Source of the DNA: Salinispora mooreana
GTDB lineage: Bacteria > Actinomycetota > Actinomycetes > Mycobacteriales > Micromonosporaceae
DNA length: 64,000 bases
Reading direction: 5' to 3'
Assembly: GCF_000379065.1 (NCBI RefSeq)
Contig: NZ_KB900614.1
Span: 1,486,850-1,550,849 of the forward strand
This document shows, in pieces, positions 876 through 19,204 of this stretch (position 1 is its first letter; each line of letters opens with the position of its first letter). The notes under the pieces are model-generated. The model was not told the DNA's origin and ran no database searches. It was given only the letters and a program-made list of their open reading frames with translations. Position numbers and translations under genes: made by a program.

Positions 876-896
876 TACCGAAGTAAGGTTTCGGTA
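876..896. promoter_or_regulatory. Inverted repeat overlapping the antitoxin start (candidate operator)
   Basis: TACCGAA, 7 bases, TTCGGTA: a perfect 7-bp inverted repeat whose last base is the A of the ATG of the next gene. There is no obvious Shine-Dalgarno upstream, so a leaderless transcript is possible. The position fits autorepression by the antitoxin, which is an inference. Confidence 0.5.
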
Positions 897-1210
897 TGAC
901 TGAGTTCCGTAAGTTGTCGATCAGCGTGCCTCCGGATGTGGCCGAGACCCTGGAGAGCCAGGGCAAGGGGCGGGCGAGCGCCTATGTGACGGGGGCGGTG
1001 CGTGCGCAGCGGGCGTGGGAGCAGTTCCGCGCCGAGCAGGCTCGGCGGGGCGTCGCCATCACTGAGGAAGGGATGGCGGCAGCTCGTGCTCGCCGGTACG
1101 CGGTGCAGGCCGAGTGGACGCCCGAGCGGTACGCCGCGCTGCAGCAGCAGGTGCGTGAGCACATGGAGCGCGGGTTGTCCGACGGCGACCAGCAGGCACC
1201 GGCCGCGTGA
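896..1210 (+). CDS. Putative antitoxin of a PIN-type toxin-antitoxin pair
   Basis: 104-aa acidic/basic mixed protein. The N-terminus FRKLSISVPPDVAETLE resembles the strand of ribbon-helix-helix antitoxins, and the remainder is strongly helical, as expected for a toxin-wrapping tail. The gene ends GCGTGA, overlapping the GTG start of the PIN-like gene by four bases, the usual antitoxin-first layout. The inverted repeat over its start codon is a likely binding site. The role as antitoxin is inferred from context and the N-terminal pattern. No DNA-binding domain can be named with certainty. Confidence 0.6.
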   Translation: MTEFRKLSISVPPDVAETLESQGKGRASAYVTGAVRAQRAWEQFRAEQARRGVAITEEGMAAARARRYAVQAEWTPERYAALQQQVREHMERGLSDGDQQAPAA

Positions 1211-1608
1211 GCGCCGAGGACCAGGGGGCTCCGATCACCCTGGTGTTGGACCGGTCGGCGGTGCTGGCGTACGTGGCCGGGTCGATCCACGCTGTCGAGC
1301 CGGTAGCGGAGGTGGTCACCGACCGGCAGCGGGTAGGCGTCACCAGCGTCACCGTCGCCGAGGCCCTGGCGCTGCTGGCCGATCCGAAAGGCCGCGAAGA
1401 CCTGCACGCGCTGCTGGGTATGGATGCCTGCGTGGTACTGCCGACCTGGGGTGAAGACTGGCTGGAGCTGGCCTACTGGCGCCAGGTCACCAGCCGCGCC
1501 GACCTGGCCACGACGGTACGGGCAGCGCTGGAACATCAAGCGTCGATCCTGACCAGCGAGGGGCACCGCTACGGCGACGGCCTACCCGTAATCCACATGC
1601 CCGGATAG
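1207..1608 (+). CDS. PIN-domain-like toxin (VapC-type)
   Basis: 133-aa protein with a PIN-like layout: the first strand carries an Asp (TLVLDRSAVLAYV), a helix after the next strand carries the conserved Glu (VTSVTVAEAL), and the C-terminal strand reads ASILTSEGHRY. PIN toxins are Mg-dependent ribonucleases that cleave tRNA, rRNA or mRNA. The third acidic position is not obvious (the C-terminal motif has TSEGH rather than TxDxD), so this may be a divergent or weakened nuclease. It is translationally coupled to the antitoxin by a GTGA overlap. It could also be an inactive PIN relative. Confidence 0.6.
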   Translation: MSAEDQGAPITLVLDRSAVLAYVAGSIHAVEPVAEVVTDRQRVGVTSVTVAEALALLADPKGREDLHALLGMDACVVLPTWGEDWLELAYWRQVTSRADLATTVRAALEHQASILTSEGHRYGDGLPVIHMPG

Positions 1609-1741: not shown

Positions 1742-2644
1742 CTATCGGCCCGGCGCCGCCATGGACACACTCGACGTGGCAGGGCGGACAGTAGGCTGCT
1801 GTTCCTCACTGGCTGAGGCGACCTCGGTGACCGCCGAAATCGTTGACTGCGGAAACGCGGACGCGGCCACCGCTGCCGGCTCGGTGCCGTGTCGGCTCTG
1901 CATCCGCACTGTGCCGAGATCAACGGTTTCGTCGAGCTGGTCTTGCACCACCCGGCACGCGTAGGCGGCTGGCCGCTGGGCCCGGTCCACGAACCTGGAC
2001 ACGCCGCGTAGAAGCTGCTGCACGTCGTGGCCAGTGTGCTGCGCCTGGTCCAGGGTGTATGCCAGGGCACCCCAGGCCTCGCACCCGATCACCGTGTCGG
2101 CTCGCTGCCCAGGCCATGCCTTGTGCACCTCAGCGGCCATCCGCTCGTGCCTGTCGCTCACCGCCTCGGCGGACATCGGCAGCCGCTGAGACTGTTCCGT
2201 GTCCTCGGACACCGCACGGTCGACGGCATCAGACAGCGCCTCGATGCCGTCCGGTTCCGCTGCGGGCTTGTGTGTCTCGGGCCCCACCCGGCCCGCCCGT
2301 TTGGCGAGTTGGTCGACGACCATCTGCCGCGCCTGCTGCGCCCGGGGGTCGACGTGGTGCCACGTGGATGCGGCACGCCACACCCGGGCGATGTCCTCCG
2401 TCCCCGCGGTGCGCCACCACCCCGTCCGCATCGCTGGCCGCCACACCGCCGCGTCGGCCTGCTGCGCGGCACGGGTTTGGGCGCGTATCCGGCGGGCCTG
2501 CTCGTCGCTGGCACGCGCCGCGCGCTGCAGCTGCATGATGCGGGCCTCGATGAGTACCTGCGCCACCTCGCCGGCGGCCTGGATCATGGCGGTGACCGCC
2601 GCGGTAGCCCGCTGGTGGATCTCGGCCATCTCGTTGTCGGGCAC
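1742..2644 (-). CDS. Hypothetical protein of the mobilisation operon
   Basis: 300-aa protein with no recognised domain. It starts 13 bases after the relaxase stop codon on the same strand, so it is probably the third gene of a mobC-relaxase operon. The N-terminal ~75 residues are Ala/Gln/Arg-rich and look like a long helix or coiled coil (QRATAAVTAMIQAAGEV, ARIMQLQRAARAS). There is no signal peptide or membrane segment. Large plus-strand frames opposite it are mirror images of the high-GC codons. A role as an accessory relaxosome or transfer protein is an inference from position only. Confidence 0.6.
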   Translation of the reverse strand: MPDNEMAEIHQRATAAVTAMIQAAGEVAQVLIEARIMQLQRAARASDEQARRIRAQTRAAQQADAAVWRPAMRTGWWRTAGTEDIARVWRAASTWHHVDPRAQQARQMVVDQLAKRAGRVGPETHKPAAEPDGIEALSDAVDRAVSEDTEQSQRLPMSAEAVSDRHERMAAEVHKAWPGQRADTVIGCEAWGALAYTLDQAQHTGHDVQQLLRGVSRFVDRAQRPAAYACRVVQDQLDETVDLGTVRMQSRHGTEPAAVAASAFPQSTISAVTEVASASEEQQPTVRPATSSVSMAAPGR

Positions 2645-2657
2645 TACCTCGTCCTCC

Positions 2658-4169
2658 TCATCGCTGCGCTTCCCCGCCCCCGCTCAGATCTCGGGGTCGG
2701 ACCGGGCCGGGCACGGTGTGGGGCTGCGCCTGCGGCGTGCTGCTCTGGGCCGGCACCTGCACCTGGTCGACGCGCGGGACGCCGGGCTGCAGCAGGGGCA
2801 TCAGATGCGCCGCGGCGGCGGCAGCTGCGCCGGCGGCGTGGGCCTGCTGCTGGGCGGCCCGCAGCTCGGCCAGCGCCACAACCAGCCGCGCCGCCTGAAC
2901 CACCACGGCCAGCAGGATGGCTGCCTCCCCGCCGTTGCGGGCGTGCCCAGCGACCAGCAACGCATCCGCCACCCGGCCCAACTCGGCGGCCACCGACGAC
3001 GCTGCTGGCGCCGGTGCGCGACGCGGTGGTGCCGCCGCACGCGCCAGGGCATCGGCGGCGCGGGTCACCGGACCCCGCCCGGATGGTTCGGCGCCCGCCG
3101 CTACCCGGGCCAGCAGCTCGGCGCTGGCCCGGGTAGCGGCCGGCCACTGCGGCGAGTCGGGAGCGATCCGGGTCAGCCGGACGCTGATCGCCTCCAACGC
3201 GGTGGCCGAGGATCGCCACACCGCCATCCGGTCCTCACCGCTCAGCCGGATCCGCGGTGATTCCGTGGACCCCGCTGCTTTCCACTGGCTCGTCGTGGGT
3301 CGCTCGACATCGGGCCACCGTTTACGGACCTGGGGCAGACTGAGGTCCCCGTCCAAGCTGCCCCCCGCGTACCAGGTCGGTCGGCCAGAACTGGTCGGTT
3401 GCACCGCGACCACGTACCCGACCACCTGCTGCGAGTCCGTTGCCGCGGTGCGGGGTGCCACCAGTAGGCCCGCGGCCTTCATCCTCGCCACCCAGTCGGC
3501 TTCGCCCTCGGCTCCAGCGAGGGCTGCTCGGACCTGTCGGCGCAGCAACTCCCGCTCCGGTGTCTGGCCGCTGCGCCGGGCCCGGTCGACCTCCGGCCGG
3601 GTCAACTCCGGCCGCTTCGTCGTACCGGCCCGGCCGGGTGTCCACTTACCCAGGCCGAACTCGTCCTCCCGCAGGTCGGCGACCTGCTGGCTGCGCCGCT
3701 TGTCCTGCCGCAGCCACACCGGTGCCCCGTCCTCGGCAGCGAGGGTGACGACCACATGTATGTGGTCGTTGCCCTTTGCGGACAGGCCGTGGCGCACCGC
3801 GATCCATCGGCACCCGGCCCGCTCGGCGTCACCGGCGAAACCCATCCCGGTCACGAACCGGCCCGCGATACGCGACCAGGTGGCGTCGTCGAGCTGGCCC
3901 TCCTGCGCGGGCAGGCTCAACGAGCACTGCCACACGTACTGGCGCACTCCGCGCTCACCGGCGGCGATCTGCGGCGCGTCCAGCCGCGCCGCCAACTCCT
4001 CCAGCGACCAGCCGCCGTCGTTGTGCGCACGCTGCTGTGGGGCGAGCAGCGCGACGTCGTCGTACCCGGCAACCAAGTGCGGGTTGACATGTTCCTCAGC
4101 CTTTCCCGGCCCCCACAGGTACTCCAACAACCCGCGGACCCGACTGCCGTAGGTGACCTTCGGAATCAT
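2658..4169 (-). CDS. Relaxase / mobilisation nuclease
   Basis: 503-aa DNA relaxase of the MobP-like relaxase superfamily. It would nick oriT and attach to the 5' end of the transferred strand. The N-terminal ~180 residues hold the catalytic fold: MIPKVTYGSRVRGLLEYL at the start, VWQCSLSLPAQEG, and the metal-binding motif GNDHIHVVVTL (His-x-His) near residue 130. A nearby RQDKRRSQQVADLREDEFGL block follows. The C-terminal half is an Ala/Arg-rich helical tail without a helicase. The start overlaps the MobC stop (ATGA-type). A small relaxase without type IV secretion genes nearby suggests a mobilisable rather than self-transmissible element. Confidence 0.85.
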   Translation of the reverse strand: MIPKVTYGSRVRGLLEYLWGPGKAEEHVNPHLVAGYDDVALLAPQQRAHNDGGWSLEELAARLDAPQIAAGERGVRQYVWQCSLSLPAQEGQLDDATWSRIAGRFVTGMGFAGDAERAGCRWIAVRHGLSAKGNDHIHVVVTLAAEDGAPVWLRQDKRRSQQVADLREDEFGLGKWTPGRAGTTKRPELTRPEVDRARRSGQTPERELLRRQVRAALAGAEGEADWVARMKAAGLLVAPRTAATDSQQVVGYVVAVQPTSSGRPTWYAGGSLDGDLSLPQVRKRWPDVERPTTSQWKAAGSTESPRIRLSGEDRMAVWRSSATALEAISVRLTRIAPDSPQWPAATRASAELLARVAAGAEPSGRGPVTRAADALARAAAPPRRAPAPAASSVAAELGRVADALLVAGHARNGGEAAILLAVVVQAARLVVALAELRAAQQQAHAAGAAAAAAAHLMPLLQPGVPRVDQVQVPAQSSTPQAQPHTVPGPVRPRDLSGGGEAQR

Positions 4170-4639
4170 CAGCGGCGACCCGTCTGCGCGGCGGCGATCG
4201 CGGTGACGAGGTCGTCAACGCGCGCCGCGACCCGCGCCAGGTATGCCGCGGTCGCGGTCAGGTCCCCGGCCGGCTCACCGGTCGAGTGCAGCCGCGCCAC
4301 CGCCTGGTTGAGGTTGTGCGCCGCGCCCCGTACCTGCCGGTGCACACCCATCAGCTCAACCAACAATGGCCCGGTCTCCGCGGCGCCATCCGGGCCGGCG
4401 GAAGCGGGCACGAGCGGCGCCGACCCGGCTTCCGCCAGATACGCCGAAGTGGCCAACCGGGCCGCCGCCGCATTCGCCTCGACCGCCGCCGCCTCCGCCT
4501 CGGACAACCGCACAGTCACCCGATGCACACGCGGATCATCATCGGTATGGGCACGCCGCCGGCGGTGGCTCGCACCGAACCGGACCACACCGACCTGCGC
4601 CGGATCAGCCACATCGACCACCCTTCCGACGAGCATCAA
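4169..4639 (-). CDS. MobC-like relaxosome accessory protein
   Basis: 156-aa protein with the MobC pattern: an N-terminal ribbon-helix-helix-like segment (HRVTVRLSEAEAAAVEANA, roughly residues 38-60) followed by a helical C-terminus with GVHRQVRGAAHNLNQAVARL, the conserved Asn-Leu-Asn-Gln helix of the family. MobC proteins bind oriT next to the nick and help the relaxase open the strands. It overlaps the relaxase start by four bases, and a small inverted repeat in its upstream region is a possible oriT. The start could be the second ATG/GTG, because the first ~20 residues are not conserved-looking. Confidence 0.75.
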   Translation of the reverse strand: MMLVGRVVDVADPAQVGVVRFGASHRRRRAHTDDDPRVHRVTVRLSEAEAAAVEANAAAARLATSAYLAEAGSAPLVPASAGPDGAAETGPLLVELMGVHRQVRGAAHNLNQAVARLHSTGEPAGDLTATAAYLARVAARVDDLVTAIAAAQTGRR

Positions 4640-4792: not shown

Positions 4793-5792
4793 TTACCGGG
4801 AGGCCGCCCGATCGCCACCTACACCCCTCACCGAGGATGTACCTGTAACGCTGCCCCGGTCACTTGTCGCCTGACTCAGAGTCGCCCTGGTCGGCGAGGG
4901 GAACGCCCGGACCGCGGTATCAGTGAACGTACGGTCGGCAGCAGAGTCGAGGTGAGCCACAGCCCTACGGACCGCCTCAGCGAGAGCCGGCTTGAGATGC
5001 TCACCAATGCGCTCTGCCGTAGAGCGTGCACGCTGCGAAAAGTCGTCGCGCTCCTCGGCCGTCCATGCCCGTGATCGCTCGCCTTCGATCGCCTCTCGCA
5101 AGCGGGCCGGCTCGCTCCAGCTGCCGCTCTCGTCCAGGGCGTTGCGGTAGAGAGTCTCGCCACCGCGGCGCACCACATACGCCGCGTCAACGAGACGCTC
5201 ATCCTCCAGCCGATCAGCTGTGACAAGCACGGCCGGGTACGCCCTGTCATGGATCTCGGGCGACACGAAGCGGCCAACACCGTGTTCGTTTCTCTCCCGC
5301 TGATACCGGTCAAGGACCGCTAACAGACTGCGCGCTTTGCACCGCGACGAAGACATACTCCACCCGGTACCCGGCCTGGTGGAACTCGTCGAACCGAGCC
5401 GCTGCCCAGTCCGCCCCGGCCAACGGTGCGCTGATGACGGCATCACACTGTTGCCCCCGAATGTGCTCGGCGAGCATCGTCCACCACCGGCTAGCAGCAT
5501 CAGCTAGCAGCGCACGCACGGTCTGATCGTTCTCGGCAGCCAGCCTGGCGTAGTCCGGGTGGTACTCAAAAAGGTCGTCCCCGTCAACCGCGACCGCTTC
5601 CTCACGCCCTAACTGAACAACAACCTGCGACTCGACGGTGGTCTTAGCCGCACCCGGCTGCCCGGCGATGAACACGACCACCGGGTGTTCCCGCGCGGCG
5701 CCGGTATACACCGGTCTGATCTGCTCTTCGAAGATGCGCCGCGACTCCTCCTCGGGAAGCCGGAACATCGACGGATCCGTGTTCGCGGTCAT
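4793..5792 (-). pseudogene. Zeta-type toxin kinase, frameshifted
   Basis: Homologue of zeta toxins, which phosphorylate UDP-N-acetylglucosamine and block wall synthesis. The first ~150 residues are intact, with a Walker A (FIAGQPGAAKTT) and VDGDDLFEYHPDY, the Asp-x-Asp/His region of zeta. At about 5335 the frame that reads VEYVFVAVQ runs into a stop after SAQSVSGP. The continuation KARSLLAVLDRYQRERN, then GVGRFVSPEIHDRAY, is in the next frame. A single extra base would explain it. The partner antitoxin upstream is intact and overlaps the start by ATGA. The toxin is probably inactive unless the base is a sequencing error or frameshifting occurs. Confidence 0.75.
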
Positions 5793-6082
5793 CGCGGCTC
5801 CGAGACCTCCCGCGCCAACGCAGGATAGTCACGCATGACTCGCTCGATCTGCTCCCGGTCATCCAGAGTCAACAGGCGTCTCTCCCGCGCATACCGCTGC
5901 TGCGCCGCCACCAACGCGGCACGCTCCTCAACATCCACCGTCTGACCCAAGCGACTGCTGTAGGCCGCGATCACCGCACCGATCGCCGCCCTGGCCGACT
6001 CGAAATCAGCGGCATCCTGCTCGCTCCACCTACCCAGATCGTTAAGCCGCCCTGCATACCGTCCCCGGTCACCCTCCACCAT
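5789..6082 (-). CDS. Antitoxin partner of the zeta-type toxin
   Basis: 97-aa protein starting at an ATG with a good upstream GAGGAGAG sequence. A longer reading of the frame upstream has no conserved look. The sequence is helical and charged (RYAGRLNDLGRWSEQDAADF, then VEERAALVAAQQRYARERRL). It ends in TGA overlapping the ATG of the zeta gene, so the two are coupled. Actinobacterial zeta toxins often have such small helical partners. I assign the role by position and size. Confidence 0.6.
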   Translation of the reverse strand: MVEGDRGRYAGRLNDLGRWSEQDAADFESARAAIGAVIAAYSSRLGQTVDVEERAALVAAQQRYARERRLLTLDDREQIERVMRDYPALAREVSEPR

Positions 6083-6140
6083 CCGCTCTCCTCTCAAATA
6101 CGCTTTGCTCGATCGAGCCGCCCTGTGAAAGGACGACGAC

Positions 6141-6350
6141 ATGAACCCTGACTTCCCTGCTGACCATGCTCTGTGGCGCAAGAGCAGCCGCAGCCTGAAC
6201 GAGAACGCCCAGTGCGTCGAGGTCGCCCTGACCCCGCACGCCATCGGCATCCGCGACTCCAAAGACCCCTCCGGACCAGCCCTACTGATTACCGCCACGG
6301 GGTGGAGCACATTCATCGACCTGATCAAGAGCAACAGGCTGCGTACCTGA
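6141..6350 (+). CDS. DUF397 domain protein
   Basis: 69-aa protein with the DUF397 signature: ALWRKSSRSLNENAQCVEVA near the N-terminus, then GIRDSKDPSGPALL and a C-terminal W-x-x-F-x-x-x-I segment. DUF397 proteins are common in actinomycetes, usually beside an XRE-type regulator, and some act as small partners of such regulators in development. Here no XRE gene is adjacent, so the gene is an orphan. An AAAGGAC sequence lies upstream at a suitable distance. It is divergent from the antitoxin gene. The following 268 bases (6351-6618) hold no gene I can support. Confidence 0.85.
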   Translation: MNPDFPADHALWRKSSRSLNENAQCVEVALTPHAIGIRDSKDPSGPALLITATGWSTFIDLIKSNRLRT

Positions 6351-6618
6351 TCTACACGACGGCCCTGACGGCACACACCAGGAGCCCACCCCGTGAGGGC
6401 TGCAGACGATAGCCGGCCGCCGTCCAGCGTCAAGGGCGCTACGCGTCGCTGCGCGATGGGCCCATGGCCCACCCTTGACCCTGGCCACCGTCCTTGGCTA
6501 ACAACCAGGACGCCCCCACGGGCCGGAAGCAAGGGTGGAAAGGCGGTAACACAAGGATCGATCTTGCCCACTATGCTCTGCCTCCACAGCACCCGGCCGT
6601 CGTATTGGGGAGGACTCC

Positions 6619-7286: not shown

Positions 7287-7748
7287 GTGACCAATGACTC
7301 GCCAGTCCTCAAATCTGACAGTCACCTGAGCGCAATCGTGCACTGGTCGCACCACCGCAACGGGCGGGCACATTGCCTGGTACGTCTATATCGTCTCAGC
7401 GATCAGGTTACCGCAGTAGCGTCTGAGATCCGCTCCAACAGCGACAGCTACGGCATTGCCGATGACATGGCCGGCGTTGCCATGCAGGCGCTAGAACTTG
7501 CACAGGAACACCTCAACGTCGAGCCCAGAAACATTACCTGGATCGCCCATCACGGGAATTTCTCCTATTACGACGCTTTTGATCCAGACACATTCACCGC
7601 CATCCCTTTAACCTGGGACGGCCACCGCTACCAGGACAAACTTGAGGATCACCGCCTGCTGACCGAGAATCAGGTACACGAATTACTCGGCGGTCGCATT
7701 CTGGAGCCGGTGCCCGCCACACTCGCGCACCTCGGCTGGCCCAACTGA
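7287..7748 (+). CDS. Hypothetical protein, first gene of the FolD-like/amidase operon
   Basis: Protein of 153 aa. The GTG at 7287 is chosen because AGGAGG sits eight bases upstream. The earlier GTG nine bases before it overlaps that site. There is no known domain. Visible features are a His-rich start (SAIVHWSHHRNGRAHCLVRL), an acidic middle (SYGIADDMAGVAMQALELAQEHL) and aromatic strands (ITWIAHHGNFSYYDAFDPDTF). It looks like a small soluble alpha/beta protein. It ends 3 bases before the FolD-like gene, so it probably serves the same pathway. Codon use is less GC-biased than its neighbours, which fits horizontal transfer. Confidence 0.65.
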   Translation: MTNDSPVLKSDSHLSAIVHWSHHRNGRAHCLVRLYRLSDQVTAVASEIRSNSDSYGIADDMAGVAMQALELAQEHLNVEPRNITWIAHHGNFSYYDAFDPDTFTAIPLTWDGHRYQDKLEDHRLLTENQVHELLGGRILEPVPATLAHLGWPN

Positions 7749-7751
7749 ACG

Positions 7752-8792
7752 GTGCCAAATATGGTCACTGGAACCGAAAACCAAATCTCAGGCCGAGAGA
7801 TCCTACGAAACGTCCATAATCTCTACGTCGGCTACCGCGACTCCATGGCATCTCTCGACAAGAGAGCAACAATCATCCGAGTCGAGGCCGCAACTCACGA
7901 CCCTGCGGATTGGAAAATACGCTCGGATGCCTCACGGATCTCAGCCGAACAGAAGGTCGCAAACTTTACCAAAATTGGCCTACATACCGACCATCTAGTT
8001 CTTCCGTCCCACGTCACCCCAGCGCAGTTCAGCGCCGCCATCGAAAGCGCTAACATCAGCCCCGCTGTAACCGCAATCATCGTGCAACAGCCAGTCCCGG
8101 CCCGGCTGCGTCAATTTGTGCAGGGTATCGCACCACACAAGGACATCGACGCCCTCACTGAGGCATCCAGCCGGCAGGTGTGTGCGACTGCCGAAGGGAT
8201 CTGGCGAGTGGTACGACCCTTCGCCCAGGATGCGCCATCCATCGCTGTCGTGGGAGCCCACGGGTTTGTCGGGCGCGGTGTCGTCAGCCGACTCGCCGAG
8301 CACGGTCACAAACCGCGCCAACTCGATCTCGGCGACGACCTGGACGCAGTTCGAGAAGCCGATATCGTCGTCTCGGTAACCGGCAGCCCGGGCATCCTTG
8401 GCCCACAGCACATACGTCCACACCACCGGCTTGTGGTCGACTCCGGATTCGTGCCAGCACCCAACGGGAAAGTAGTTGGTGACATCTCCCCCGAGGCCAC
8501 CAAGATCCCGCAAAACATTACCCCGGTACCTGGTGGTATCGGCCCCGTCGAGATGGCCGTCCTAGTCGAGCGGGCTATCCAAAAGGAGCTGCAACCTGAG
8601 CTGGAGTCGTGGCAGTACAAAGGACGTCCATATCAGGAACGCTTGAGTGAAGTCGACGCCTCCCGAGCTGCAGCCCTCGCCTTCCCCACCCCGACTCGCG
8701 TACCTCGCCAGGAGGGGCCGAGGACCACAAATCGGCCTCCCTACCAACAGGCTGGCCACGAACAAGGGACCGACCGAGACACACAGCGATGA
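7752..8792 (+). CDS. FolD-like methylenetetrahydrofolate dehydrogenase/cyclohydrolase family protein
   Basis: 346-aa protein with the FolD plan. The region SRISAEQKVANFTKIGL carries the catalytic Lys (about 68). VQQPVP has the Gln of the VQLPLP motif, and PHKDIDAL has the Asp of P-x-KDVDG. A Rossmann segment VVGAHGFVGRGVV replaces the usual VIGRSxxVGxP. ADIVVSVTGSPG and ITPVPGGIGPVEMAVLVE close the domain. FolD interconverts methylene-, methenyl- and formyl-tetrahydrofolate using NAD(P). The altered nucleotide loop, the long N-terminus and a ~55-residue disordered tail separate it from housekeeping FolD. It is coupled to the amidase by an ATGA overlap. A specialised one-carbon role, or a related cyclohydrolase reaction, is inferred. 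Confidence 0.75.
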   Translation: MPNMVTGTENQISGREILRNVHNLYVGYRDSMASLDKRATIIRVEAATHDPADWKIRSDASRISAEQKVANFTKIGLHTDHLVLPSHVTPAQFSAAIESANISPAVTAIIVQQPVPARLRQFVQGIAPHKDIDALTEASSRQVCATAEGIWRVVRPFAQDAPSIAVVGAHGFVGRGVVSRLAEHGHKPRQLDLGDDLDAVREADIVVSVTGSPGILGPQHIRPHHRLVVDSGFVPAPNGKVVGDISPEATKIPQNITPVPGGIGPVEMAVLVERAIQKELQPELESWQYKGRPYQERLSEVDASRAAALAFPTPTRVPRQEGPRTTNRPPYQQAGHEQGTDRDTQR

Positions 8793-10141
8793 GTTTGAAC
8801 CCCGACACTGACCCGGCGCCCCTCAACGCCGTCGAGATCGCAAGGATGGTCAACAGCGGTCAACTCTGCCCCGTGGATGTCGTCGAGGCCGCCTTGAGAC
8901 GTATCGCGGCCATCGACCACGAACTACGGGCCTTCCGAGAGGTCTGGCCGGACCAGGCACGTAGTGCCGCGTACGAGCTACAGCGCATTGTCAGCACCGG
9001 CGTCAACCTGCCTCTCGCCGGAGTCCCGATCGGCATCAAGGCCACCGAAGGCATCGCCTCGCTACACGCCAAACGCCTCATCGCCGCCGGGTGTATCCCG
9101 ATCGGCACCACGGCCGTGCCTCGCGGCACCGATTGGCAGACCTGGGGGCATACGGACCGCGGGCCCACCACCAACCCATGGCGAGTCGACCGCACCCCCG
9201 GTGGGTCATCCGCCGGCTCCGCAGCTGCAGTCGCCGCGGGTCTCGTACCGCTGGCTACTGGCAACGACGGTGCCGGATCTCTCCGGATTCCGGCTGCCTG
9301 GTGCGGCGTGCTCGGCGTTAAGACCACCAATGGCCTGCTGTCCTCCGTGAACGCTCTCAACGCACCTGGTCCGCTGGCCCGCACTGTCGCTGACGCCACC
9401 AGCTACCTCGACGCCATCCTCGGCACACGACTTGCCGAACACCTCGCCACCCCGCCACGAGGGCGACCAATCCAAGCAGTGTGGTCAGTCGACCTCGGCT
9501 ACGCCGAGGTCGACCAGCAGATAGCAAGAATCGCCCATGCTGCCGCAAACCGACTCGCCAAGGACGGATTCCTCCAATGGGTCGAACACGATCTAATCCT
9601 GAACGACCCTGAACCCGCATGGAAGGAACTCAGAACACAAACATCGACCGATAAAACTCACCCCAAAGAACTGCACATGCACAACACCCACCAACTAGCC
9701 AAACTGTTCTCTGCTGCCGATATCCTGGTCACCCCGACAACCCCCTACACCGCTCACGGCCATGCGGGACCAGGCAAGCGCCTGAATGTAGCTCTGACCT
9801 GGGCATTTAACGTCAGCGGCCATCCAGCAGCCAGCATCCCTGCCGGCTTCGCCCCTGACAACACGCCTGTGGGCTTCCAAATCGTCGCCCAACACAACCG
9901 CGAAGACCTACTTATACGAACGGCTGCAGCCTTACAACACACCCAACCGTGGCCGAGTGCATACGAAGAAGATGCCAAATGGGGCCCCCAAAGCCACCAC
10001 GGCGGCCGGGCACGGAGGCATCAGGGGCAAGGTGACCCGGACCGCAGCGCCGGCCACGGCGCGAGGACCGGAAGCACCGCGGCAGCACTGCTCTCACCAA
10101 CCCCGTGCTCGACTGAGACGTGTCGGCCTTCGCTTGAGTAG
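8789..10141 (+). CDS. Amidase-signature family hydrolase
   Basis: 450-aa serine amidase with the Ser-cisSer-Lys triad visible: Lys about 84 in VPIGIKATEG, the Gly/Ser loop TPGGSSAGSAAAVAAGLVP near 137-153, and the nucleophile Ser about 164 in GNDGAGSLRIPAAWCG. The segment between the Lys and the first Ser is about 40 residues shorter than in typical amidases, so the substrate pocket is probably different. The last ~65 residues after LQHTQPWP are low-complexity (HHGGRARRHQGQG) and look like read-through into unrelated DNA. It is the third gene of a tightly coupled operon. The substrate is unknown. Confidence 0.8.
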   Translation: MSLNPDTDPAPLNAVEIARMVNSGQLCPVDVVEAALRRIAAIDHELRAFREVWPDQARSAAYELQRIVSTGVNLPLAGVPIGIKATEGIASLHAKRLIAAGCIPIGTTAVPRGTDWQTWGHTDRGPTTNPWRVDRTPGGSSAGSAAAVAAGLVPLATGNDGAGSLRIPAAWCGVLGVKTTNGLLSSVNALNAPGPLARTVADATSYLDAILGTRLAEHLATPPRGRPIQAVWSVDLGYAEVDQQIARIAHAAANRLAKDGFLQWVEHDLILNDPEPAWKELRTQTSTDKTHPKELHMHNTHQLAKLFSAADILVTPTTPYTAHGHAGPGKRLNVALTWAFNVSGHPAASIPAGFAPDNTPVGFQIVAQHNREDLLIRTAAALQHTQPWPSAYEEDAKWGPQSHHGGRARRHQGQGDPDRSAGHGARTGSTAAALLSPTPCSTETCRPSLE

Positions 10142-10170: not shown

Positions 10171-10306
10171 TATATCGGGGTCGGGAACGTGAAACGGCAC
10201 CCTCATCCACCGCCCCCGCACTCGACTGCGATACATCGATGCCATTGCTTTCTGCGATGCTTCTCTCGTCTGGTGTGGAGCGTGGGCGGATCGAGGTGGT
10301 GCCACG

Positions 10307-10628
10307 GTGATGGGGCGATCTCACGCGCTGTCCGGGGCGGTGATGTGGCTGTGTGGGTGCGCGGAGGTCGCGGTGTGGGGCGCCCAGCCCGCAGCGGGGA
10401 CGGTTGTGGTGGGTGCGGCGGTCGCTGCGGGTGCCGCGTTGCTGCCAGATATTGATCATCCAGGATCGGTTGTTGCTCGGTCGTTGGGCCCGGTGACGCG
10501 TGTGATCGCTCGAGGGACGGCGGCGGGGGCTGCGGCACTACGGCGCTCATCTTGTGGTTGTTGCACGGGCCGGGGCGGACATCGGGCGGTGACTCACACG
10601 CTAGTGTTCGCGGTGGCCGCCGGCCTAG
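10307..10628 (+). pseudogene. Membrane metal-dependent hydrolase (DUF457-like), N-terminal part, split by IS701
   Basis: First ~107 codons of a gene for an inner-membrane hydrolase of the YdjM/DUF457 type. The family marks are visible: GRSHALSGAVMWL at the start, AALLPDIDHPGS, and GGHRAVTHTLVFAVAAG (metal-binding His residues). Hydrophobic segments alternate with these motifs. The reading frame is cut at the CTAG duplicated by the IS701 element. Removing the element and one CTAG joins GCC GGC CTA GTG GTG in frame to the downstream part. The start may be the GTG at 10307 or the ATG at 10310. Confidence 0.75.
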
Positions 10629-12183
10629 TAGTGCTTTGTTAGGTTGGGACGAGTTGGTGGCAGAGGGGGCAGAACCCGAGCCAGGTCGCGAGTAGGTATT
10701 GCAGTTCGCGCAGGACGGCGTAGAGGCTCAGGTCTGCCCCGCTGCTTTTGGGCGTGTCAGCCTCAGTTGGGTGAGGAACAGGTGGGCGGCTGCGGTGAGG
10801 GTGACGTGGCGGTGCCAGCCGGTCCAGGAGCGGCCCTCGAAGTGGTCGAGGCCGAGGGCGGTTTTGAGCTCGCGGTAGTCGTGTTCGATGCGCCAGCGGC
10901 TTTTGGCCAGGCGGACCAGTTCGGCAAGCGGTGTGCCGGCGGGGAGGTCGGACAGCCAGTAGTCGCTGGGTTCGTCCTGGCCGGGGGGCCATTGCACGAG
11001 TAGCCAGCATTCGGGCAGGACCCCGTCGTCGCCGCGGTGGGGTCCGCGTCGGACGGCCCGGCCGGCGGGACGCACCCGCAGGGCGAAGAAGTGCCCGGAT
11101 AGTTCACCGGCGGGCTGGTCCGGGTCGCGGTCGGGTGTGGGTAGCCGGGCGCGCCAGCGCACCAGCGTCGTGGCGTCGGCGCCGTGGGTGAGGGCGAGGT
11201 GTTTCAGGCTGCGGGCCGGCTGGGGGTAGCGCGGTGTGGGGTGTGGGCCGACACCGGCGTAAGGCACCTCGACCGGTTGGGCGTCGCCGGGTTGCGCGGT
11301 GGTCGACGACGTGGTCGCGACAATGTAGCCGATGCCGCGTTCGGTCAATCCCTGACGGAACTCGGCGACCTGCCCGTAGCCGGCGTCGGCGGTCAGCAGC
11401 GGCGGACGTAGTCCCCACTGGGCCAGCTCGTCGAGCATGTCCAGGGCCATCAGCCGCTTCGGCCGGTACCGCTCGGCGTCCGGGACCTTCGACGCGGTGC
11501 GGCGCCGGCGGATCTGCGCGATCTGCTCAGCGGGCGGCAGCCGCACCCGGGTGTGTGGCTTCTTCGCCCCGGCCGCATCGAGGGTGACCGGCTGCTGACG
11601 CAGTCTGCGGGCGTGCACGTTGGCGGGCTTGCCGTCCGGGCCGGGCACGCAGCCCTCATCCCAGGACTCCGGCAGGAACAACCGCCAGTTCAGCACCGCC
11701 GACGCCGTGTCAGTCGCCGCGTGAACCGTGACGGCGATCTGGCAGTTGGCGACCTTTCCGAGAGTGCCGGAGTACTGCCGGGCCACACACGCCGAGGCCT
11801 TGCCGTCCTTCGGGAATCCAGTGTCGTCGACCACCCACACCTCAGGCGCCACCACCTCGACCGCGGCCGTGGCCAGCCGCCGCCGCACACCGCCGACATC
11901 CCAGGTGGACGAGGTCAGGAACTGCTGCAACTGCTGATGATCCACCCCGAGCCGCTGCGCCATCGGCTGCATCGACTTCCGCCGGCCATCCAGCATCAAC
12001 CCCCGCAGATACCGCAGACCCGTCGCCCGCTGATCCGACCGCCGCAACCCCGCGAAGATCCCCGCCGCGAAGTCCTCCAACCGCCCCCGCACCCGGGCGA
12101 GTTCCCGCTCATCCACGCACCGCAGCCAACACCGCCACCATGCTCACACAAGCGACACGCCACAACGACCTAACAAAGCACTA
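10629..12183 (-). mobile_element. IS701-family insertion sequence, complete
   Basis: The element is 1,555 bp, bounded by TAGTGCTTTGTTAGG and its inverted copy, and flanked by the 4-bp direct repeat CTAG at 10625-10628 and 12184-12187. Four-base duplications are known for this family. The element carries one intact transposase gene and splits the DUF457-like gene, so it inserted recently enough to leave the host frame restorable. Confidence 0.9.
10728..12116 (-). CDS. IS701-family transposase
   Basis: 462-aa DDE transposase, full length for the family. Catalytic acids are recognisable in VWVVDDTGFPKDG (first Asp), LLTADAGYGQ (second Asp) and RWRIEHDYRELKTALGLDHF (Glu, followed by the long helix that family members share). 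The N-terminal ~90 residues (LRYLRGLMLDGRRKSMQPMA) match the usual DNA-binding part. There are no frameshifts, so it is probably active. It lies antiparallel to the gene it interrupts. Confidence 0.9.
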   Translation of the reverse strand: MDERELARVRGRLEDFAAGIFAGLRRSDQRATGLRYLRGLMLDGRRKSMQPMAQRLGVDHQQLQQFLTSSTWDVGGVRRRLATAAVEVVAPEVWVVDDTGFPKDGKASACVARQYSGTLGKVANCQIAVTVHAATDTASAVLNWRLFLPESWDEGCVPGPDGKPANVHARRLRQQPVTLDAAGAKKPHTRVRLPPAEQIAQIRRRRTASKVPDAERYRPKRLMALDMLDELAQWGLRPPLLTADAGYGQVAEFRQGLTERGIGYIVATTSSTTAQPGDAQPVEVPYAGVGPHPTPRYPQPARSLKHLALTHGADATTLVRWRARLPTPDRDPDQPAGELSGHFFALRVRPAGRAVRRGPHRGDDGVLPECWLLVQWPPGQDEPSDYWLSDLPAGTPLAELVRLAKSRWRIEHDYRELKTALGLDHFEGRSWTGWHRHVTLTAAAHLFLTQLRLTRPKAAGQT

Positions 12184-14001: not shown

Positions 14002-15033
14002 CTAGACGATCTATTCCGAGGGATCAGTGGTCGTACGCGATGAGGGAGCGCATGACGGGTTGGCCGGTGGTCCAGTTGTGCCAGATCGCGGCGGTCATCG
14101 CGAGGATGCGTTGTGCGACGCGTACGAGTACGCCGGTGGCGGTACGGCCGCCGTGTCTTTCGAGGTCGAGTTGACCTTTGAGGGTCTGGTTGACGGACTC
14201 GATGCCTTGTCGTACTGCGCGTAGTAGCGTCCGTCCGGGGCGTGGCTGCTCGGTCCGGTAGGCGGGGCGGATCATGGTGACGCCGCGTTCGGTCAGCTGT
14301 CGTTCGGTGGCAGCGTCGCGGTAGCCCTTGTCCACGGCCAGGGTCAGCCCGTCGGGATGGGTCAACAGGCCGGTGTCCAGGTCGAACAGGTCCATGAGTG
14401 CTTCGCGTTCGTCGGTCTTGGCGGTGGCCAGGGCGAATGCCACGGGCAGTCCGTGCACGGTGGTGACCAGGTGCAGACGCAGGCCCCAGAAGCGACGTGA
14501 GTGCGAGGCGCAGTAGCCGTAGGTGGCCCACCCCGGCCAGATCAGAGCGTTTGACGGTCTCGCGGGAGCGTCCGCACTCCACCGGGGTGGAGTCGGCGAT
14601 GCGCACCGGGTGCTGCCACAGGTCGGTGTCCAGGGCCAGAACCCGGATCAGGTGGGTGATCTGCGTGCCGAGTGTCCGCAGCCGCTTGTTGTACCCGGGC
14701 TGTTTCGGGATGTAGGGGAACAGGTGGGTCAGGTTCATGCGGGCGTGACGGATCCAGCGGGCTTCCTTGTGGTAGCCGAGCAGGGCTTGCAACACCGACA
14801 GGGTGATCAGTTCGGCGTCGGTGATCTTCGGGGCGATCCCGATTGCGGGTCGCCAGCGGGTGAGCTGGGGCGACGACTTCAACACGTCGTCGATCTTCAC
14901 GTACAGTGCGGTGGCGAGGGTGTCCCGATCGACGTGCACGTGGCCTCCATGGTCATCGTTGCTCAGCAACGTCGATCATGGACGCCCTCGCCTCTCTTCG
15001 CTGTCCCCGTACCCCTTGGAATAGATCGTCTAG
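14002..15033 (-). mobile_element. IS982-family insertion sequence, copy 2 (complete but frameshifted)
   Basis: 1,032-bp element with perfect 16-bp terminal inverted repeats (CTAGACGATCTATTCC at one end, its complement at the other). No convincing target duplication is visible at the borders. The transposase gene carries a one-base insertion relative to the copy at the window's left edge. Confidence 0.9.
14024..14942 (-). pseudogene. IS982-family transposase, frameshifted by one extra G
   Basis: Starts at a GTG giving VHVDRDTLATALYVKIDD, the typical IS982 N-terminus (an ATG 27 bases further upstream is possible). The frame is good through IAPKITDAELITLSVLQALL and RIADSTPVECGRS. At about 14532 the run is CCGGGGTGG instead of CCGGGTGG, and the frame shifts into Arg/Pro-rich nonsense. 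The correct continuation (MHGLPVAFALATAK..., LAVDKGYRDA) is in the neighbouring frame down to the stop. The copy at the left edge lacks this G. Confidence 0.85.
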
Positions 15034-17797: not shown

Positions 17798-19204
17798 ATG
17801 ACTGCCATGTTGTTTCGACGGCTAACCAGCCTGACCCTCGGCGCCGCTCTGGCCGCCGGCATCGGCCTGACCGCCGGCGTTGCCACCACCGTCACCAGCG
17901 CCCCGCAGGCAGCCCACGCTGCCTCCAGCGTGGGTGGCCAGATCACCCGTGACGAGATCCTGAACCGCGCCAAGTACTGGTACGACAACCGGGCAAGCAT
18001 CGGGTACAGCCAGACCGGGTGGTACCCGGACCAGAATGGTAGAAAATATCGGACGGACTGCTCGGGGTTCATCTCCATGGCCTGGCACCTCTCCGCTTCG
18101 GCATGGACCGGCAACCTCGACACCGTCGCAACCCAGATCAACAAGAACGACCTGCAACCGGGCGACGCCCTCAACTACAAGACCAAGCACGCCATCCTCT
18201 TCAAGCGCTGGATCAATCAGTCGACCGGCACCTTCGAGTACTACTCCTTCGGGAGCTATCCGGTGAAGATCGGGACGGAAACGCTTACGGGCGGCTCCGA
18301 CGGCCGGATCGACTCGCACCTGGCGAGCAGTTACGTGGCGCTTCGCTATCGAAACGTCGTCGGCAACACCGAGCCGCCCGTACACAACCCTTTCCCAGCC
18401 GATGTGACGGGTGATGGTTTCCACGACCTGATCGGGAGGAAGTCCGACGGAACGCTGCTGATGTACGCCAACAACTTCGTCCGGGACGACGGCGTCCCCT
18501 ACAACGCCTCCCAGCAGATCGGCAGCGGCTGGAGCAGTGCCGACCGGATCGTCCACGCCGATGCCACCGGTGATGGTTACGCTGACCTGCTTCTGGTGAA
18601 GGCCGACGGGAAGATGATCCTGTACCCGAACAACATCGAACGTGACAACGGAGTCCCGTTCAGCTCCCCGGACTCCCGCGAGATCGGCCACGGCTGGGAC
18701 GGCTTCGACATGATCGTCGGTGCAGACGTGACCGGCGACGGGTTCACCGACCTCGTGGCCCGCAAGACGGACGGAACCCTGTGGTTGTACCCGAACAACT
18801 TCGTCCGGGACGACGGCATTCCGTACAGCACCCCCCAGCAGATCGGCCACGGCTGGGACGGCTTCGACATGATCGTCGGAGCGGACGTGACCGGCGACGG
18901 CTACACGGACCTCGTCGGCCGCAAGACGGACGGAACGCTGCTGCTGTACGCGAACAACATCGAACGTGACAACGGAGTCCCGTTCAGCGCCTCCCAGCAG
19001 ATCGGCCACGGCTGGGACGGCTTCGACATGATCGTCGGAGCGGACGTGACCGGCGACGGCTACACCGACCTCGTCGGCCGCAAGACGGACGGAACCCTGT
19101 GGCTCTACCCGAACAACATCGAACGTGACAACGGAGTCCCGTTCAGCTCCCCGGACTCCCGCGAGATCGGCCACGGCTGGGACGGCTTCAACAGCATCAT
19201 CTAG
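17798..19204 (+). CDS. Secreted NlpC/P60-like protein with FG-GAP/VCBS repeats
   Basis: 468-aa exported protein. Residues 1-41 are a signal peptide (Arg-rich start, LTLGAALAAGIGLTAGVATTV, cleavage after AHA). Residues ~45-190 form an NlpC/P60-like amidase domain with TDCSGFISMAWHL (Cys about 88) and KTKHAILFKRW (His about 131). From ~199 there are five FG-GAP-type repeats of ~52 residues, each with a D-x-T-G-D-G-x-x-D-L calcium-loop core, K-x-DG-T and YPNN/YANN. Repeats 2-5 are nearly identical in DNA. The domain pair suggests a peptidoglycan- or peptide-cleaving enzyme held by a beta-propeller-like module. A terminator hairpin follows 14 bases after the stop. Confidence 0.8.
   Translation: MTAMLFRRLTSLTLGAALAAGIGLTAGVATTVTSAPQAAHAASSVGGQITRDEILNRAKYWYDNRASIGYSQTGWYPDQNGRKYRTDCSGFISMAWHLSASAWTGNLDTVATQINKNDLQPGDALNYKTKHAILFKRWINQSTGTFEYYSFGSYPVKIGTETLTGGSDGRIDSHLASSYVALRYRNVVGNTEPPVHNPFPADVTGDGFHDLIGRKSDGTLLMYANNFVRDDGVPYNASQQIGSGWSSADRIVHADATGDGYADLLLVKADGKMILYPNNIERDNGVPFSSPDSREIGHGWDGFDMIVGADVTGDGFTDLVARKTDGTLWLYPNNFVRDDGIPYSTPQQIGHGWDGFDMIVGADVTGDGYTDLVGRKTDGTLLLYANNIERDNGVPFSASQQIGHGWDGFDMIVGADVTGDGYTDLVGRKTDGTLWLYPNNIERDNGVPFSSPDSREIGHGWDGFNSII

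Follow-up and report, generated by a model that had tools for sequence, protein, structure and literature searches.

A mobile three-gene cassette of Salinispora mooreana encodes a FolD-fold protein that may be an effector of conjugation

We analysed a 64-kb stretch of the 5.2 Mb genome of Salinispora mooreana, hereafter the window, which carries a compact cassette of three genes. These encode a protein of 153 amino acids (aa), a FolD-like protein, and an amidase-signature (AS) hydrolase (Table 1). The best-supported reading of this cassette, to which we assign a probability of about 0.58, is that of a FolD-fold effector delivered by conjugation and paired with an immunity partner. The cassette would be a conjugation-linked effector module, and the FolD-like protein its payload.

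We infer translocation, toxicity, immunity, substrate, and the role of the amidase in the following way. The donor would make the FolD-like protein together with the 153-aa protein, which would bind it and keep it harmless. During mating, a VirD4-type coupling protein would read the disordered C-terminal tail of the FolD-like protein, which would then enter the other cell through a type IV secretion system (T4SS). In the genus of the window, the tail signal would be AFPxPTR placed 30 residues before the stop, with Arg as the last residue; in Streptomyces-like genomes (defined below), it would be a tail rich in Pro/Gly that ends in Arg and often contains an AAxRLR motif. In a recipient that lacks the partner, the FolD fold would act on the folate one-carbon pool or on NAD(P), and a recipient that gains the element would soon make the 153-aa protein and be protected. 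The amidase would have an accessory role in the cytoplasm, where its substrate may be the product of the effector.

The three genes are a tight operon, as the first-pass annotation had described: the coordinates of the open reading frames (ORFs) place all of them on the forward strand, with a gap of 3 bp (7749-7751) between the 153-aa and FolD-like genes and an ATGA overlap (8789-8792) between the FolD-like and amidase genes. The G+C content of the cassette is 61.6%, versus 66.1% for the whole window. The nearest named relative found here is Salinispora cortesiana CNY-202 (G022), whose cassette region is 98% identical over 2,716 bp.

Occurrence of the FolD-like gene is sporadic. With the FolD-like protein as the query, the numbers of matching genomes per set were 4/160 (genus), 2/300 (family), 3/397 (order), 3/396 (phylum), and 9/295 (a genus taken for Streptomyces), and these sets overlap. 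The latter nine genomes (G1231 and eight others) are termed Streptomyces-like here, an assignment made partly from the SCO6880 family; family f15 is taken for Pseudonocardiaceae. The gene of the 153-aa protein and its relatives, which we call the small gene, adjoins the FolD-like gene in all 14 distinct genomes anchored on FolD, and a contig end cuts it in two of them (G022 and G328). Meanwhile, a query with the small family matched 10 of 297 genomes in the family of G328, nine of which have the FolD-like gene beside the small gene, broken in three cases (L026, L121, L122). Among plasmids, 16 records matched the FolD-like protein, 14 of them at 42-48% identity, which form a clade with it, and two at 28-29%; the small gene is adjacent in six of the 14 clade records (four from Pseudonocardia and two from Acaryochloris). 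A single scan of genome contigs found S. cortesiana, five distant relatives of FolD with 25-29% identity, and nothing else.

The amidase gene accompanies the small-FolD pair at L024, L025, and L027, at L012, L013, L019, and L122, and at L129, L138, L140, L141, and L144, and a fragment of it is left at L121. It was not found at L128, L142, L143, L026, L139 (contig end), or the four type VII-type loci described below. All three genes occur together in related, Pseudonocardia, and Streptomyces-like genomes, in the order small-FolD-amidase or amidase-small-FolD. This neighbourhood search shows that the grouping is not accidental, since the three genes recur elsewhere in two orders. The divergence of the small gene follows that of the FolD core (rho 0.86 over 17 loci, reached by none of 2000 permutations), which is expected of any co-inherited pair and proves only joint travel. 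The cassette is a conserved mobile module: relaxase and NikA-like genes lie in the window, relatives are found on MOBF plasmids and in T4SS clusters, and occurrence is sporadic. In this respect the mobility proposed by the first-pass annotation was borne out.

The FolD-like protein matched the Pfam family THF_DHG_CYH_C (4e-18) and the catalytic domain (7.5e-11), both above cut-off. Its best NCBIfam score was 88.8 bits, which is below the curated cut-off of 355 of the FolD model. The AlphaFold2 (AF2) model displays the two-domain FolD fold, matching FolD 4cjx with a VIA Z of 28.8 and a root-mean-square deviation (rmsd) of 2.6 over 266 residues. In an alignment with E. coli FolD (1b0a), K68, Q112, and D133 correspond to K54, Q98, and D121, and Ser64 stands in the place of Tyr50, the active-site Tyr. 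S64, K68, Q112, and D133 are invariant in 11 of 11 and in 18 of 18 aligned members, two alignments that have rows in common. The nucleotide loop, which is GxSxxVGxP in FolD, reads GxxGFVGxG here. Hence the identity of the protein, the three kept residues, and the altered loop had all been recognised correctly from the first look at the sequence, which had missed the change from Tyr to Ser. An altered reaction on folate or pterin is suggested by the Lys/Gln/Asp pocket, which is kept, and by the exchange of Tyr for Ser; the chemistry of the protein would point to folates, pterins, or NAD(P). A separate housekeeping folD is present elsewhere in the window genome (E 4e-59), and the genomes G144, G054, and G1309 also each have a full-strength folD of their own.

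As first noted, the 153-aa protein belongs to no known family: Pfam and NCBIfam gave nothing better than E 0.05 for it, and PADLOC had no match. Its AF2 model is confident (mean predicted local distance difference test, pLDDT, of 92) and has no clear structural match. Foldseek against PDB gave a best E of 3.5e-3, with TM below 0.35 among the matches listed, and VIA a best Z of 5.0, neither of which is a usable match; a viral structure library gave a best E of 2.2e-3. When PDB sequences were searched with a profile of the small family, no match was better than E 0.24. Judging by its genomic association, the 153-aa protein is probably the immunity protein of the FolD-like candidate effector.

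Four genomes of the family of G328, taken for Pseudonocardiaceae, displayed a different arrangement (L123, L124, L125, and L127). In these, the FolD-like domain is the last one of a large protein, at its extreme C-terminus, with 5-8 residues after W287 in all four. The ORF starts at L124 and L125 are too long, as codon-position G+C favours another frame; thus, the true proteins would have about 1,100-1,700 aa. The L123 protein also has a Scabin-like ADP-ribosyltransferase domain (PF22596, 4e-16), a segment that was seen by eye in L124 and L125 and had no such match in L127. Pfam was empty in both stretches of these proteins that we likened by eye to caspase and WXG100. The small gene lies a few bases from the FolD-bearing gene in all four loci and is convergent with it, so that the pairing is kept despite the change of strand. 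The genes that come next in the four loci form a single BLAST family; both copies tested (L124 and L127) have a TNT domain, and the L124 neighbour matched the NCBIfam model lone7para_assoc, "type VII secretion system-associated protein" (5.7e-27, above cut-off). Upstream of the L127 protein are a gene with a YbaB domain and another whose WXG100 match is sub-threshold. The four loci are laid out like a polymorphic toxin and its immunity gene, and from the NCBIfam match of the neighbour we infer secretion of the large FolD-bearing proteins.

The standalone FolD-like proteins are instead often linked to conjugation. Of 26 loci, 13 encode a VirD4/TraG-type coupling protein no more than 9 kb away, with L128 and L017 checked by Pfam, and in nine of the 26 it is on the same strand, 0.9-2.9 kb upstream of the FolD-like gene; it is near none of the four type VII-type loci. 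This survey took the first 30 kb of the window. Every aligned standalone member continues for 43-219 residues after W287, versus the 5-8 residues of the type VII versions. In the window protein, this tail is disordered, with mean pLDDT values of 44-61 in blocks from residue 301 on.

Within the genus, the tail has a recognisable form. FPxPTR lies exactly 30 residues before the stop in the window FolD-like protein and in its orthologues of G144 and G054, and of 30 sites examined (32 were found in the three genomes), four have the stop exactly 30 aa past the motif, namely the three FolD-likes and the window zeta toxin. The second piece of this zeta toxin ends in a tail with FPSPTR, of 30 aa, the last one Arg. 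A six-frame scan of the window for FPx[PS]T-x(24-38)-R* matched the FolD-like protein, the zeta piece, and a 300-aa neighbour of the relaxase, that is three matches against a mean of 0.02 in 200 shuffles of three-base blocks, for a motif that was drawn from the FolD-like protein and the zeta piece and loosened after the zeta toxins of G050 and G076 had been seen. A C-terminal tail is therefore common to unrelated proteins of one element, which would make them candidate substrates of one transfer system. The zeta toxins of G050 and G076 have open frames, with AFPTSTR, 31 residues to the stop, and Arg as the last one, and S. cortesiana has an open zeta frame with a slightly divergent tail (AFLSPTR); the zeta tails of G112 and G122 have GSTR at the place of the motif. 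In G050, the zeta gene is close to a stretch that, read by eye, resembles the C-terminus of the G144 coupling protein. The FPx[PS]T tail was not found on contigs C2 and C3 of the window genome, where one match to a looser pattern, on C2, looks like chance.

In Streptomyces-like clusters, all eight complete FolD-likes end in Arg, and in five of the eight AAxRLR precedes the stop by 42-44 residues. One such cluster has two copies of a zeta-family kinase in which AAxRLR lies 32 and 37 residues before the stop, the L147 zeta-family kinase has AAAGKLR, and the L145 zeta toxin has an Arg end without the motif; Pfam zeta matches of the three kinases tested ranged from 4e-9 to 6e-37. Counted together, Arg is the last residue of 11 of 11 scored FolD-likes (window, L024, L025, L128, L129, L138, and L140-L144) and of 9 of 9 scored zeta-likes, versus 48 of 225 called ORFs, with the nine zeta-like rows chosen after their tails had been seen and the background including some of the same proteins. 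Since the rows are related and partly picked by eye, binomial values are given no weight. Left out of this count were L139 (contig end), the broken L026, L121, and L122, and the Pseudonocardia and cyanobacterial FolD-likes, which end otherwise except for the Nostoc member L017 (Arg).

The simplest account of both contexts would be a single payload that is delivered in two ways, by a large N-terminal region where the type VII route is used and by a short C-terminal tail where the conjugative T4SS is used. The partner that stays constant would then be the immunity protein. Somewhat short of even odds, we further propose that the FolD fold has been turned into an antibacterial payload against the one-carbon or NAD(P) metabolism of recipients; that it is common to type VII polymorphic toxins and T4SS effectors by a swap of delivery parts, with one new immunity family kept; and that the Arg-ended tail of Actinobacteria is an undescribed T4SS signal that also carries zeta toxins.

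Several observations weigh against a conjugation-delivered effector with an immunity partner. The pairing is incomplete: G374 has a small-gene fragment only and no FolD-like gene, Pseudonocardia pFRP1-2 (L022) has the small gene without the FolD-like gene, and the small gene is not recognisable in eight Nostocales plasmid records of the clade. Broken members are also found, of FolD in L121, L122, L026, and pMB08, and of the amidase in L140. No coupling protein was seen in the available stretch of the other 13 of 26 loci. The window has none either, according to a genome-wide PF12696 search, whose matches lie on contigs C2 and C3 and, at a distance, C1; therefore, export would need help in trans, and the element would borrow a coupling protein. 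The tail motif was found after looking and was not predicted, and the tail is lineage-bound, as Pseudonocardia and cyanobacterial members carry other tails. A C-terminal MxL ending was considered as a common signal in cyanobacteria and rejected, because on three cyanobacterial plasmids only the FolD-likes have it among ORFs of at least 100 aa; two other ORFs of pLS2-2 also end in MxL. Finally, because Lys, Gln, and Asp are kept, the FolD-like protein may be an active metabolic enzyme.

This last point leads to the main function proposed by the first-pass annotation, a mobile module of one-carbon chemistry and amide hydrolysis. In such a module, a plasmid-borne variant of methylenetetrahydrofolate (methylene-THF) dehydrogenase/cyclohydrolase and an amidase would supply or rewire one-carbon chemistry for the element or its host, as the FolD fold with its kept residues, the intact triad of the AS amidase, and the tight operon would allow. 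That function does not hold up well against the rest of the data and is unlikely: the same genome has its separate housekeeping folD, no aligned member retains the catalytic Tyr, the amidase was not found at L128, L142, L143, and the four type VII loci, the tail is common with zeta toxins, and the domain sits at the C-terminus of large type VII-linked proteins. The chemistry may still be directed at folate or NAD(P), as the action of the payload. The tail and the C-terminal placement, together with the position behind a coupling protein in nine loci, are also left unexplained if the two genes are an intracellular toxin-antitoxin (addiction) pair that stabilises the element in its own host and has a tail unrelated to secretion. 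Zeta is a known toxin of toxin-antitoxin pairs, and it adjoins the cassette; the two-gene pair occurs on plasmids and elements, and the window has a possible VapBC-like pair with a PIN match below cut-off. We nevertheless consider addiction improbable.

The tail and the linkage to coupling proteins speak for transfer only, and not for harm. They would also fit a leading-region establishment factor, that is, a translocated non-toxic enzyme that aids DNA on its entry, for instance as a counter-defence or as a source of a cofactor for the recipient, and the Pseudonocardia copies lie near a DUF932 gene, in L012 also near a ParB gene. Against this speak the C-terminal position of the domain in polymorphic-toxin-like proteins, where it has the same partner, and the lack of a PADLOC match, and we hold an establishment factor to be the least probable of the readings considered. 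A delivered effector with its immunity protein stays our preferred reading.

Other origins and functions were considered and rejected. Anti-phage defence had no PADLOC match. As for a phage origin, phages had no match to the small protein and FolD relatives of only 24-29% identity (20 listed of 39), and viral contigs had no small-protein match and FolD alignments of only 28-30% identity (best 80 of 446).

Table 1 Features of the cassette and of the mobile element around it (window coordinates)
Feature	Position	Strand	Remarks
300-aa protein directly behind relaxase	1742..2644	-	tail FPQSTI, 31 aa, last one Arg; no Pfam match
MobA/VirD2-type relaxase	2658..4169	-	Pfam Relaxase 5.8e-7
NikA-like mobilisation protein	4169..4639	-	Pfam NikA-like 3.1e-7
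Zeta-toxin gene in two frames, 5310-5792 and 4793-5500	4793..5792	-	Pfam Zeta_toxin 1.3e-26 (first piece), 1.7e-7 (second)
Candidate zeta antitoxin	5789..6592	-	BLAST cluster with L140:11711-12223; no Pfam match
153-aa protein gene, candidate immunity gene	7287..7748	+	GTG start; AGGAGGT 7273-7279
FolD-like protein gene, candidate effector	7752..8792	+	GTG start, 346 aa; core about residues 10-290
FolD-like disordered C-terminal tail, FPTPTR motif to final Arg, candidate T4SS translocation signal	8682..8789	+	
AS hydrolase (amidase) gene, accessory	8789..10141	+	ATG start, 450 aa

The amidase matched Pfam PF01425 (4e-56). Its Lys/cis-Ser/Ser triad (K84, S140, S164) is invariant in seven of seven members, as expected from the earlier description, which had also put the protein about 40 residues short between Lys and the first Ser. 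That figure was too high: this stretch has 56 residues, and alignment with GatA 3kfu gives about 19 more there. The last 55 or so residues of the window amidase are not common to its relatives. The 3' end of the gene (9986-10088) matches contig C2 of the window genome with 95% identity over 103 bp, as does the stretch behind it (10207-10633) with 92% over 428 bp; C2 is plasmid-sized (locus L253). These matches suggest that mobile sequence may have replaced the original end of the gene. With this non-conserved end and a zeta gene in two frames, the element of the window is partly decayed.

The candidate zeta antitoxin of the window clusters with a gene of L140 that lies upstream of a Streptomyces-like zeta toxin. 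Two inverted copies of an insertion sequence (IS), at 1-654 and 14002-15033 (99.8% over 655 bp), bracket the relaxase, the zeta gene, and the FolD cassette, and flank this segment like a composite element; a further IS copy lies upstream of the window (96.8% over 1,021 bp). Two small genes at 896-1608 (+) are VapBC-like by layout, and the PIN match of the second falls short of the cut-off (E 0.0044). At 18398-19201, a gene of an FG-GAP-repeat protein contains internal repeats with a period near 160 bp.

Other loci displayed variations of their own. The Nostocales plasmids L014 and L016 have a gene of about 80 aa before the FolD-like gene and a family 2 glycosyltransferase after it, in the place of the amidase, which is perhaps another partner set. 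L015 and L018 are Acaryochloris plasmids. On pMB04, the small-FolD pair is in tandem duplicate beside a MobF relaxase, and the FolD gene of the Acaryochloris plasmid pMB08 is broken up and annotated as two ORFs. Streptomyces-like T4SS clusters that hold zeta-family kinases with Arg-ended tails were found at L148 (18038-19899) and L147 (7801-8877). The L148 kinases are two in tandem, with a gene of 80-81 aa before each, and are likely a further effector/antitoxin array.

If our reading is true, these findings have implications for the understanding of conjugative elements. Central folate metabolism would be a target of conjugation-linked warfare, and a new immunity family would be defined. Actinobacterial conjugative systems would gain a readable signal for protein export, by which other cargo could be found by sequence alone. 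It would also become possible to test directly why conjugative elements encode toxins meant for the cells that receive them. In titles and the beginnings of abstracts, we found no FolD or methylene-THF dehydrogenase described as a toxin payload, the term FolD being confounded with "fold", and nothing relevant on the tails of actinobacterial T4SS substrates.

The FolD-like protein resembles FolD in its fold (Z 28.8), its Lys, Gln, and Asp, and its PGG motif, and differs from it in the Tyr-to-Ser change, the GxxGFVGxG loop, scores far below the NCBIfam cut-offs, and the linked tail. PezT is related to zeta, the toxin that shares its tail with the FolD-like protein in the window. The type VII versions are reminiscent of polymorphic toxin systems, with a C-terminal domain in large multidomain proteins, an ADP-ribosyltransferase domain, an adjacent small gene, and a type VII link (PMC3482391). 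The searched part of that paper (300,000 of 357,715 characters) has no mention of folate or tetrahydrofolate, nor does the part of PMC5512222 covered here mention folate or one-carbon.

The effectors of the X-T4SS of Xanthomonadales, which include a zeta toxin among their domains, likewise join unrelated toxin domains to one common C-terminal signal, XVIPCD, which binds VirD4 (PMC6536674). XVIPCD has about 120 residues and a Gln-rich end (PMC6536674), whereas the tail described here has about 36-50 residues and an Arg end, and a relaxase is present here. The FolD-like tail had no Pfam match at E<=1, the presence of BID and XVIPCD domains in Pfam being unconfirmed.

A further likeness is to VbhTA. 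VbhT, a Fic toxin with a C-terminal BID signal from Bartonella pVbh, is transferred by a conjugative T4SS, and further candidates are a PezT with BID (PezTA pair, Chelativorans plasmid) and a FicT with a BID-like end (PMC5675462). The candidate payload here has the FolD fold, belongs to Actinobacteria, and carries a short, disordered tail that, to judge by Pfam, does not resemble BID. What the two have in common is a toxin-antitoxin-like pair of toxin and partner near conjugation genes, in which the toxin bears a C-terminal T4SS signal, for the FolD-like protein a candidate one.

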